DNA of 44,406 nt from Fidelibacterota bacterium (GTDB lineage: Bacteria; Pseudomonadota; Alphaproteobacteria; Rhodospirillales; Rhodospirillaceae): NCBI GenBank assembly GCA_947475895.1, contig CANJMF010000024.1, positions 1 to 44,406 on the forward strand, in the 5' to 3' direction. The notes beneath the pieces are model-generated. The model was not told the origin of the DNA. It searched no databases and worked only from the letters and a program-made list of their open reading frames with translations. A program made the position numbers and the translations under genes. Shown piece after piece: positions 25,025 through 29,770 of the stretch. How positions within the stretch are numbered: the stretch's first letter is position 1; each line of letters begins with the position of its first letter.

Positions 25025-26350
<1,326 letters not shown>

Positions 26351-26373
26351 TCCTAGATTTGCTTGAAACTTGA

Positions 26374-26411
26374 GCGGGCGTCGGCAAGCAGCCGGCGCCC
26401 GTTTCTTTTTT
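26374..26411 (+). terminator. Terminator of aatA
   Basis: GCGGGCGTCGGC (26374-26385) pairs with GCCGGCGCCCGT (26391-26402) apart from one or two wobbles, with a T-rich tail to 26411. It separates aatA from the end of the opposing small-RNA gene. Confidence 0.8.
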
Positions 26412-26429
26412 GAGCAATGAGGATTTTGC

Positions 26430-26547
26430 CAAAGATAAAGGCGGTAAACGGGGGAGGACCGTTTACCGCCTTATTTTGCTGCGCCGCACTGGTTTCGCAA
26501 ATTTCCCCGGAGAGAGAAGGACTTACGAAATGCTGCAAAGCAACATT
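26430..26547 (-). ncRNA. Small RNA A, AbcR-like, first of a tandem pair
   Basis: A predicted 118-nt RNA read on the minus strand. Its 5' end forms a short hairpin (AUGUUGC/GCAGCAU). Next comes a stem between UUUCGUAA and UUGCGAAA that encloses a loop carrying GUCCUUCUCUCUCC and GGGGAAA. The RNA ends in a perfect 13-bp terminator stem (26439-26451 with 26459-26471), whose loop reads UCCUCCC, followed by UUUAUCUUU. The 31 nt at 26499-26529 are identical in copy B, and stem pairs covary between the copies (U-G versus U-A). CUCUCUCC and UCCUCCC are complementary to ribosome-binding sites, as in AbcR sRNAs. The AbcR assignment also rests on synteny with LysR, trxB and aatA; expression is unproven. 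Confidence 0.72.
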
Positions 26548-26553
26548 AAGAAC

Positions 26554-26618
26554 ACTATACCCACCGACCTGGCAGGTGGCCAATGCAAATTTGGGATAGG
26601 CGCATGCATTTGCTGCAA
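26554..26618 (-). promoter_or_regulatory. Promoter and LysR box of small RNA A
   Basis: Read on the minus strand, the -10 is TATAGT (complement of 26554-26559) and a weak -35 TTGGCC lies 18 bp upstream. ATGCA (26604-26608) and TGCAA (26614-26618) form a T-N11-A LysR-type box centred at 26611, which is 64 nt before the predicted start at 26547. The same spacing holds in copy B. Confidence 0.55.
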
Positions 26619-26630
26619 AGCAACATAAAG
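26611..26630. repeat. Extra copy of the sRNA 5'-hairpin sequence
   Basis: TGCTGCAAAGCAACATAAAG (26611-26630) differs by one base from the 5' end of small RNA A (26531-26550). It has no terminator of its own and looks like the remnant of a third unit between the two RNA genes. It overlaps the LysR box of copy A. Confidence 0.6.
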
Positions 26631-26691
26631 GCGATTGCGCGGGGGAAAAATGTAACGCCCTGCGTCTAAGGCATGGCGCAACGTACTGATG

Positions 26692-26808
26692 AAAAAGGAA
26701 AGGCGGTAAACGGGGGAGGAGCCGTTTACCGCCTAATTGCTGCGCTGCGTCTTGACCGTAAATTTCCCCGGAGAGAGAAGGACTTACGAATTGCCGCAGA
26801 GCAACATT
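26692..26808 (-). ncRNA. Small RNA B, AbcR-like, second of a tandem pair
   Basis: A predicted 117-nt RNA homologous to copy A, with gap-free alignment at an offset of 261 bp through the promoter and core. It keeps the 5' hairpin (GUUGC/GCGGC with wobble pairs), the enclosing stem (UCGUAA/UUACGG), the identical core 26760-26790, the GCGCAGCA block, and a perfect 13-bp terminator stem (26701-26713 with 26722-26734) with loop CUCCUCCC and tail UUUCCUUUUUC. Copy B lies nearer to the lysR gene and has the better LysR box. As with copy A, assignment to AbcR (alpha-r15) is inference from structure and synteny. Confidence 0.74.
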
Positions 26809-26814
26809 GATAAC

Positions 26815-26879
26815 AATGTACCCAAGCTCTCGGGAACGCGCCATTGCAAATTTTAAGCGCCGCTATGCGTCCAGCGCAT
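26815..26879 (-). promoter_or_regulatory. Promoter and LysR box of small RNA B
   Basis: On the minus strand the -10 is TACATT (complement of 26815-26820), with a poor -35 (TGGCGC, 17 bp upstream). A perfect interrupted palindrome, ATGCG (26865-26869), 5 bp, CGCAT (26875-26879), gives T-N11-A and is centred at 26872, 64 nt before the predicted start at 26808. That is the classic LysR recognition-site position. A weak -35 is expected at an activator-dependent promoter. Confidence 0.6.
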
Positions 26880-27010
26880 GGGCATACTATGAGCGGGGTT
26901 GAAAAGGATCGACCCGAATTCGGCAAATAAGAAGCTGAATTTCTTACTTAATCGGGCGGCGAAAGTCGCAAATCGAGGTTGCGCAGGCATGAAGGATTTA
27001 TGACAAACCC

Positions 27011-27979
27011 TCAGCCGGCGGGCCGCAAAGCCTCCGGCTCTTGGCCGACGACCGTCAACTGCGACTTGGTTTTTGCCAATTCGCGAATCAGGAAGTCGCG
27101 AAACACCGTGACTCGCGCCGACTGGCGCAGTTCCTCGGGGTACACGAAATACAGTTCCGTTTCTGGTCCCTGAAGCTCCGGCAGGATTCGCACAATGCCG
27201 CGGCCTTCGTGGCGGAAGTATTGCGGCAGCGATCCGATTCCGATTCCGGCCTTCACAGCGCGGTAGATGCCGTAAATGTTATTCACGCGCAGCGACGCCG
27301 TGATCGGAATGTTTTTTTCCTCGAGCACTTCGCCAAGCCAATTCACGGTGGCGGTTGGCGTGATCCCCTCACCGAAGAGAACGAGGTTGTGGTTGGCGAG
27401 ATCTTCCAAAGACTTCGGCGTGCCGTGCTCTTGCAGATATTCGGGCGATGCGTAGATGTCGTTGCGCATGGGGCCGATGGGGCGCTGAATCAGATCGGGT
27501 TGCTTCGGTTCATTGAAACGAATCGCAACGTCGGCTTCGCGCATGGCGAGATCGAGTTCGCGGTCGTCGAGGCGCAGCATCACTTCGATGCCGGGATAAG
27601 AGCGGATGAATTCCTTCAGGCGGCCCGTAAGCCACACCGATCCGAACGCGACGGTGGTGGTGACGCGCAGCAAGCCTTCGGTGTTCTCTTTGGTTTCCGT
27701 CAGCAAGCCTTCGACGTTGTTCAGTTTCGCAAACACGTCGTGCACGGTCTTGTAGAGAAGATCGCCTTGCTCGGTGAGAATCAACCCGCGCGCATGGCGG
27801 TGAAAGAGGCTGACGCCCAGCGATTCCTCAAGCGCGCTGATCTGGCGGCTAACCGCAGATTGGCTGAGGTTTAGCGTCTCGCTCGCGCGTGTGAAGCTGT
27901 CGGCTTCGGCGACAGCATGGAACACGCGCAGCTTGTCCCAATCGAGACGTCCGGTATTGCGCAAAGGCATTCGCGCCAT
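27011..27979 (-). CDS. LysR-family regulator, LsrB/VtlR type
   Basis: A 322-residue transcription factor with an N-terminal winged HTH and a C-terminal effector-binding domain. The N-terminus (LDWDKLRVFHAVAEADSFTRA, LNLSQSAVSRQISALEESLGVSLFHRHARGLILTEQG) closely matches rhizobial LsrB and Brucella VtlR, as does VTTTVAFGSVWLTGRLKEF. In Brucella VtlR activates abcR2; LsrB of Sinorhizobium controls redox and envelope genes. The gene follows trxB by 38 bp on the same strand and is followed by the two sRNA genes, whose promoters carry T-N11-A boxes. Start choice between ATG 27979 and ATG 27970 is uncertain. The regulatory link to the RNAs is inferred. Confidence 0.92.
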   Translation of the reverse strand: MARMPLRNTGRLDWDKLRVFHAVAEADSFTRASETLNLSQSAVSRQISALEESLGVSLFHRHARGLILTEQGDLLYKTVHDVFAKLNNVEGLLTETKENTEGLLRVTTTVAFGSVWLTGRLKEFIRSYPGIEVMLRLDDRELDLAMREADVAIRFNEPKQPDLIQRPIGPMRNDIYASPEYLQEHGTPKSLEDLANHNLVLFGEGITPTATVNWLGEVLEEKNIPITASLRVNNIYGIYRAVKAGIGIGSLPQYFRHEGRGIVRILPELQGPETELYFVYPEELRQSARVTVFRDFLIRELAKTKSQLTVVGQEPEALRPAG

Positions 27980-28017: not shown

Positions 28018-28971
<954 letters not shown>

Positions 28972-29167: not shown

Positions 29168-29251
29168 ACTCCGTAAAGAGTGGGAGAGAAATACCCGGAA
29201 CCGGGGTTTCGAAGAAACATTAGGGGCGCTGCACTCGCAGCCGTGAATTTT

Positions 29252-29770
29252 ATGCAGCGCGTAAAACTCGACCGCATCGATCGCCAAATTCTCAACGACC
29301 TTCAGTCCGACGGCCGCATGACCAATGTTGAATTGGCGCAACGGGCGGGAATTTCCGCCCCGCCGTGCCTACGCCGCGTCCGGGCCCTGGAAGAAGCCGG
29401 GTACATTAAAGGCTATTACGCACAACTGGACCAGGCCGGCCTCGGCTATGCCGTGACGGTGTTCGCCCACGTAGGTCTCAATAGCCAAGCCGAAGCCGAC
29501 CTTTCAGCTTTCGAAGCCCTGGCCAAAGAGTGGCCCGAAGTGCGCGAGTGCCACATGCTGGCCGGCGAAATGGATTTTCTGTTGCGGATCGTCGCCAAGG
29601 ATTGGGACGCCTATCAGAAGTTCGTCACCGAGAAACTGACCGCCGCGCCAAAAGTGGCGCACGTCAAATCGGCGCTGGCGATTCGCAGCGCGAAGAACTT
29701 GCCCGGTGTTCCGATTGCCGTGGACGGCGACAAGCCCATGCAGCCGCCGCTCGATGTGAAGGTGGGATAG
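29252..29770 (+). CDS. Lrp/AsnC family transcriptional regulator
   Basis: A 172-residue Lrp-type protein: an N-terminal winged HTH (LDRIDRQILNDLQSDGRMTNVELAQRAGISAPPCLRRVRALEEAGYIKGY) and a C-terminal RAM/ligand-binding domain (AVTVFAHVGLN, VRECHMLAGEMDFLLRIVAKD). Such regulators respond to amino acids and form octamers. The start is ATG 29252, matching the family N-terminus; GTG 29243 is a close alternative, and neither has a clear ribosome site. Divergent from trxB. Targets cannot be told from the sequence. The effector is not identifiable. Confidence 0.93.
   Translation: MQRVKLDRIDRQILNDLQSDGRMTNVELAQRAGISAPPCLRRVRALEEAGYIKGYYAQLDQAGLGYAVTVFAHVGLNSQAEADLSAFEALAKEWPEVRECHMLAGEMDFLLRIVAKDWDAYQKFVTEKLTAAPKVAHVKSALAIRSAKNLPGVPIAVDGDKPMQPPLDVKVG

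Follow-up and report, generated by a model that had tools for sequence, protein, structure and literature searches.

Gene order and the two repeated units

The window, i.e., the whole stretch of 44,406 nucleotides that was analyzed, comprises positions 1–44,406 of contig CANJMF010000024.1 in assembly GCA_947475895.1 from a Fidelibacterota bacterium (Rhodospirillaceae in GTDB). Two putative small RNA (sRNA) units were located in the intergenic region between an aspartate aminotransferase-like gene on the plus strand and a LysR gene on the minus strand. The gene order was lrp-like, trxB, lysR, sRNA, and sRNA, with the lrp-like gene divergent from trxB. Table 1 summarizes the corresponding features.

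Table 1. Features of the lsrB-type locus in the window
Feature	Positions	Strand	Remarks
Aspartate aminotransferase-like gene	25046..26350	+	convergent with the sRNA units; NF004769, 581.2 bits, below cut-off 617
sRNA unit 1 (LysR-distal)	26430..26547	-	118 nt; from repeat, fold, and joint alignment
Terminator of unit 1	26438..26472	-	perfect 14-bp stem, loop UCCUCCC (DNA TCCTCCC)
Internal CU tract of unit 1	26509..26520	-	CCUUCUCUCUCC; inside the identical 31-nt core
-10-like element of unit 1	26554..26559	-	TATAGT; sigma-70-like match
Putative LsrB/VtlR box of unit 1	26604..26618	-	TTGCAGCAAATGCAT; 1 mismatch, same distance as in unit 2
sRNA unit 2 (LysR-proximal)	26692..26808	-	117 nt; starts AATGTTGC; long-range stem, CU-rich core, terminator
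Terminator of unit 2	26701..26734	-	perfect 13-bp stem, loop CUCCUCCC (DNA CTCCTCCC)
Internal CU tract of unit 2	26770..26781	-	CCUUCUCUCUCC; inside the identical 31-nt core
-10-like element of unit 2	26815..26820	-	TACATT; by eye
Putative LsrB/VtlR box of unit 2	26865..26879	-	ATGCGCTGGACGCAT; exact ATGCR-N5-YGCAT; 72 nt from its start to ATGTTGC
LysR-type regulator	27011..27979	-	LsrB/VtlR orthologue by homology and synteny; 0 cysteines
trxB, thioredoxin reductase	28018..28965	-	TIGR01292, 418.9 bits, cut-off 343.45
Lrp-like regulator	29180..29770	+	NF008370, 124.7 bits, below cut-off 233

The LysR gene was assigned to LsrB by its location directly 3' of trxB and by the clear homology of its product to LsrB of S. 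meliloti Ak57 (48% identity over 288 residues). Among the matches listed for the LysR proteins of the window, S. meliloti, Azospirillum, and Thalassospira, no NCBIfam LysR name exceeded its cut-off. The window protein contained no cysteine versus three in S. meliloti LsrB, and 26 of the 34 orthologues (window included) with an identity of 65% or more were cysteine-free. Residues C144 and C273 are described as conserved among three compared LsrB proteins (PMC11975290). Redox-active cysteines are a trait of rhizobial LsrB that is not needed for orthology; as the window LysR possesses none, the cysteine-based redox input described in PMC11975290 cannot apply in that form. The sequence suggests that the window LysR responds to an input different from the one described in rhizobia.

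The two units shared a 68-nt direct repeat with 88% identity at an offset of 261. The identical core of 31 nt (columns 19–49 of the two-unit alignment) and the unit lengths agreed with an earlier note on this DNA, which had proposed two minus-strand units of about 118 nt. However, the gap-free 261-bp offset that it described did not hold throughout, as a 2-nt gap precedes the terminators and the offset within them is 262. Both units were predicted to fold far better than dinucleotide shuffles (z of -6.36 for unit 1 and -7.07 for unit 2; none of 200 shuffles did as well). The fold predicted jointly for the two copies has 37 pairs, and none of them is lost: 32 are unchanged, 4 carry a one-sided change, and 1 carries a two-sided change from A-U to G-C. 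The earlier note had also described a compensating change in one stem.

Other parts of the earlier description were only partly retained. Both terminator stems are perfect, and the proposed 13 bp applies to unit 2, while unit 1 has 14 bp. The anti-Shine-Dalgarno (aSD) tract UCCUCCC is present in the terminator loops of both units; of the internal CU tract, also placed in a loop by that note, the predicted fold leaves CUCC alone in the apical loop, and the remainder is weakly paired. The supposedly conserved -10 region is conserved in part, with TATAGT and TACATT at the two units and a sigma-70-like promoter match for unit 1 but none for unit 2. When unit 1 was compared with 99 genomes using blastn, the sole match was its own genome. 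A third copy of the 20-nt 5' motif of the units (TGCTGCAAAGCAACATAAAG, 95%) was observed at 26611–26630, overlapping the unit 1 box, and is perhaps a relic of duplication. The earlier note had listed neither this copy nor the inverted repeat upstream of each unit.

Comparison with the rhizobial AbcR locus

The order trxB-lysR-sRNA-sRNA has been published for A. tumefaciens and S. meliloti (PMC7486931, PMC5461406), with trxB-vtlR-abcR1-abcR2 given for A. tumefaciens (PMC7486931). In S. meliloti Ak57, the order Lrp/AsnC, trxB, LysR, a 650-nt gap, and arsR was found, and the gap contained two Rfam ar15 RNAs of 110.2 and 106.5 bits. Two ar15 RNAs (97–127 bits) were detected in each of the four Rhizobiaceae control loci. 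In B. abortus, abcR1 and abcR2 lie on different chromosomes and VtlR controls only abcR2 (PMC7486931, PMC5461406), while other papers give the VtlR-controlled RNA as abcR1 instead (PMC7143759, PMC8844928). The statement of the earlier note that tandem AbcR RNAs lie close to a VtlR/LsrB gene is thus correct for A. tumefaciens and S. meliloti but not for Brucella as described in these papers.

Similar to the rhizobial pair, the window units are tandem, lie on the same strand directly 3' of trxB-lsrB, contain two CU tracts as putative aSD tracts, and have a putative LsrB box before the first RNA. They are comparable in size to S. meliloti AbcR1 and AbcR2, for which 120 and 114 nt are given (PMC7143759). 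However, the window RNA is not an ar15 member by Rfam. The ar15 model (RF02345, threshold 40 bits) matched nowhere in the window and, even at E<=10, nowhere on 26350–27010 (661 nt), where Rfam returned chance-level matches only; over the whole window, tRNA alone exceeded the gathering threshold. The same model detected the control loci, and the earlier suspicion that it may miss the RNA was confirmed. An ar15 search of 240 genomes gave no matches even in its positive controls and thus carries no information.

The two RNA pairs also differ in the position of the aSD tracts. Those of AbcR are CUCCUCCC in the 5' hairpin loop and UUCCCCUC between SL1 and SL2 (PMC8844928), and aSD pairing is proven for AbcR1/2 (PMC8844928). 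Unlike these, the two CU tracts of the window units are sited in the inner stem-loop and in the terminator loop, and the terminator loop of unit 2 equals S. meliloti AbcR aSD1 in all 8 letters (PMC8844928). Partial homology of alpha-r15 to SuhB is also mentioned (PMC7143759).

LsrB activates PabcR1 in S. meliloti and A. tumefaciens (PMC8844928, PMC7486931), and the LsrB/VtlR consensus GCAT-N3-TG-N3-T is reported at -61 to -49 of PabcR1 (PMC8844928). An inverted repeat was centered at -64 of each unit, and the right half and spacer of this box correspond to the consensus; unit 2 has a single deviation, GG in place of TG, and unit 1 matches GCAT alone. The box before abcR1 was exact in R. leguminosarum (ATGCAGAACACGCAT) and carried one mismatch in S. 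meliloti (ATGCGCAAACGGCAT), and in each case 72 nt separated its start from that of the ar15 model. The spacing between box and RNA start was equal for both window units and for abcR1 of the two rhizobia. The palindrome of Shinella abcR1, like that of S. meliloti, carried one mismatch, the R. leguminosarum box being the only exact one. By eye, no exact box was found at the matching place before the second (abcR2) copies. In S. meliloti, AbcR1 is LsrB-dependent and AbcR2 mostly RpoH1-dependent (PMC8844928), whereas both window units keep the box.

The force of the box evidence comes from this fixed place and not from counts within the genome, which were not significant: 10 matches at one mismatch in the window against 9.6 expected, and 41 genome-wide against 49 for the reversed pattern. 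Taken together, synteny, LysR homology, box kind and distance, and the missing ar15 match support the proposal of the earlier note that this is the locus and circuit of AbcR with an RNA that the model does not recognize. Elsewhere in the same genome, another exact palindrome, ATGCR-N5-YGCATAG, was found between two genes identified by eye as clpP and clpX (locus L354, about 1500–1520; G000:C2:112042-112060) and is possibly another LsrB site.

Two further systems resemble the units in part. The alpha-r14/NfeR1 RNAs also carry repeated hairpins with aSD loops, but in S. meliloti they are sited elsewhere than AbcR (PMC7143759). The alpha-r14 model (RF02344) gave no match in the window and, at one relative (L097), 23.6 bits, far below the gathering threshold of 58.8. 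In OxyR-OxyS of E. coli, a LysR-type regulator likewise lies beside its own sRNA (PMC11975290); however, both the regulator and the RNA are different, and the window LysR has no cysteine.

LsrB loci and their RNAs across the class

Relatives of the window LysR were found in 17 of 19 genomes of the genus, 66 of 73 of the family (genus included), and 170 of 289 of the class, with eight further loci from a plasmid collection. From genome contigs, the best 80 loci of 539 were taken, and downstream loci were fetched for part of the LysR relatives. After the removal of duplicates, trxB lay immediately upstream on the same strand for 205 of 231 distinct LysR proteins. Four of these 205 loci, with less than 300 nt downstream, were dropped, leaving 201 that include the window and the Rhizobiaceae.

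Within 450 nt downstream, the box was exact at 100 of the 201 loci and present within one mismatch at 127; the respective means over 20 first-order Markov shuffles were 0.7 (maximum 2) and 11.75 (maximum 19). The remaining 74 orthologue loci had no box within one mismatch. In an earlier set of 122 downstream regions, 71 exact boxes were counted against 0.42 in 50 shuffles. The surveyed loci are related by descent, and these counts are not independent. In a class sample of 86 trxB loci from 59 families, the exact box occurred at 36 loci (29 families) and a CCUCCCUGUU module at 47 loci (35 families); one or the other was present in 39 of the 59 families. When the range was 700 nt, an exact box was present at 102 loci, of which 26 carried the full GCAT-N3-TG-N3-T, and 40 carried the 5' motif TGYTGC-N2-4-GCA 74–80 nt after the box start, compared with a shuffled mean of 0.065. 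As this motif occurs both in the window and in module-bearing RNAs, it ties the RNA forms together.

The combination of trxB, box, and module was found in cultured genera including Magnetospirillum and Thalassospira, and Azospirillum showed box and module without an adjacent trxB. Three genomes of one family had two boxes 282–300 nt apart (L156, L163, and L191), and for this reason duplication probably happened more than once. At two Thalassospira loci (L035 and L041), a second exact box was observed 370 nt after the first.

The RNA body differed by lineage: Rhizobiaceae have ar15, many families have the CCUCCCUGUU form, and GGUCCUCCCC hairpins occur around the genus of the window. In many families, the downstream RNA ends with GUCUCCCAGAC, CCUCCCUGUU, and then a terminator; CCTCCCTGTT, which belongs to this form, was present at 97 of the 201 loci against 0.3 in shuffles. 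A model of the module, R1, was built from 63 sequences from LsrB loci, with the terminator omitted by RNAalifold. At E<=0.01, it had matches in 127 of the 231 class genomes. Among the 95 listed matches at E<=1e-10 (83 genomes), 60 lay 151–486 nt downstream of LysR on the same strand, 17 were at other places in genomes for which a LysR was listed, and 18 came from genomes for which none was; this placement count is partly circular because the model was built from LsrB loci. Several module copies were also seen in one small genome without a listed LysR (G345; C20, C29, C36, and C63).

No Rfam sRNA exceeded its gathering threshold in 60 loci, comprising 20 loci, 20 class loci, and another 20 on which Rfam returned a tRNA and a 5S rRNA. 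No R1 match at E<=10 was obtained in the four ar15 loci. No RNA of these kinds was seen at the loci of Methylobacterium bullatum, Microvirga VF16, and Tistrella, and none was seen by eye in several near relatives (L017 and L020-L022).

The RNA of the window shares with the module-bearing RNAs the locus, the box, and in part the 5' TGTTGC..GCA motif, but the window and its genus are without the module. In the 19 genomes of the genus, no strong R1 match was present at LsrB; the best E was 0.178 in the own genome, and the best in the genus, 3.2e-5, came from a genome in which no LysR was found. Many RNAs of the genus instead contain GGUCCUCCCC loops, up to four of them. In 16 terminators from 15 genus loci, the loop was nearly fixed, while the stems of 12–15 bp differed on both arms. 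Of 50 TCCTCC sites in 17 loci, 25 had stems of at least 5 bp, compared with a mean of 12.9 at random places; the signal is accordingly strong in terminators, and the inner hairpins are weak by the same measure. On the LysR tree, the 17 rows of GGUCCUCCCC type need 3 changes against a shuffled mean of 16.6.

A further RNA body was found on plasmid pTAV4 of Paracoccus versutus (L307, 3560-3647), where SorX (RF02784) scored 49.3 bits against a gathering threshold of 46.6 and SorY stayed below its threshold. This RNA lies directly 3' of a LysR gene with 46–47% identity and contains CCTCCCTGTT. However, this LysR gene lacks an exact box, no trxB was found in the 600 nt upstream of it, the module is absent from the window, and the SorX model gave no match in the window.

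Alpha-r15 has been placed in most Rhizobiaceae and Brucellaceae (PMC8844928) or throughout Rhizobiales (PMC7486931), and LsrB has been called unique to Rhizobiales on the basis of a small tree (PMC11975290). This last claim is not borne out by the loci surveyed here, provided that LsrB may be recognized by homology, linkage to trxB, and the box.

Explanation and meaning of the locus

These results make it likely that the window holds an LsrB-activated tandem pair of trans-acting aSD sRNAs, orthologous to abcR1 in position and promoter but with a lineage-specific RNA body. Each unit would be transcribed on the minus strand from its own promoter behind lsrB. LsrB would bind the ATGCR-N5-YGCAT box centered 64 nt upstream of each start and, by analogy with AbcR1 in S. 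meliloti and A. tumefaciens, would activate transcription. Hfq, whose gene was detected in the genome (108 bits), may help the units to pair with mRNAs. The CU-rich tracts, CUCUCUCC in the core and UCCUCCC in the terminator loop, would pair with Shine-Dalgarno regions, and the pairing would block or destabilize the mRNAs. The RNA gene itself would have been duplicated in the species of the window.

The same arrangement could have arisen if lsrB had recruited a downstream sRNA in several lineages, with promoter and function shared with AbcR but not ancestry. The missing Rfam ar15 match in the window, the different RNA bodies of the lineages, and the four ar15 loci without an R1 match agree with such recruitment. 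Still, we regard it as rather unlikely, as place, strand, box, and box distance are all the same, and the window has the 5' motif in common with Rhodospirillales RNAs bearing the 3' module.

With regard to targets, GGAGAGA-N4-10-ATG occurred 39 times in the own genome against 5 for the reversed pattern. A search with AAGGAGT gave 13 against 12 and was therefore a poor control. This crude heptamer search showed no sign of transporter enrichment, with 1 ABC ATPase in 10 genes chosen from 30 of the 39; one of the 10 genes scanned had no Pfam family. It is improbable that the RNAs mainly sponge another sRNA or titrate a protein instead of pairing with ribosome sites: the UCCUCCC tracts do sit in stable terminator loops and any mRNA targets are hypothetical, but the loop is nearly fixed while the stems vary, and the unit 2 loop equals S. 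meliloti aSD1 (PMC8844928).

It is very improbable that the repeats only terminate transcription and fill the space between lysR and the convergent aminotransferase gene, with no separate sRNAs. The unit 1 stem does score as a terminator on the plus strand too, but a plus-strand terminator-like site separate from the units lies at 26372–26404, a box, a -10-like element, a folded body, and an aSD loop are present separately for each unit, and the box recurs across the class. A protein gene was rejected as practically implausible, although a minus-strand frame (26353–26844, 163 aa) is open through both units and the repeat is in frame (261 = 87 codons). Owing to indels, the copies no longer share this frame toward their 3' ends (offset 262), raw differences are spread over codon positions as 7/9/8 (first 85 nt ungapped, some misaligned positions included), and predicted pairs are kept between the copies.

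A LysR-controlled aSD sRNA is of a known kind. In the open-access literature searched, the RNA form of the window and its class-wide spread were not met, and neither AbcR1 in Rhodospirill* nor GCCUCCCUGUU gave a match.

Beyond the LsrB-activated pair of the window, the survey inclines us, by a small degree, to the view that lsrB with a downstream LsrB-activated sRNA is a unit that dates back to the ancestor of the Alphaproteobacteria, with box and position kept and the RNA body repeatedly rebuilt around aSD tracts. These bodies would be ar15, the CCUCCCUGUU form, perhaps the SorX-like RNA of Paracoccus, and, around the genus of the window, either a tandem pair or between one and four GGUCCUCCCC hairpins. 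This view became slightly less likely because the Paracoccus locus has no trxB and no exact box. If it is true, AbcR represents a single branch of an sRNA gene that extends across the class and is mostly unannotated, and many genomes would hold an unannotated sRNA behind lsrB. The lsrB loci thus offer a direct test of an sRNA gene that keeps its place and its switch while the RNA is replaced.
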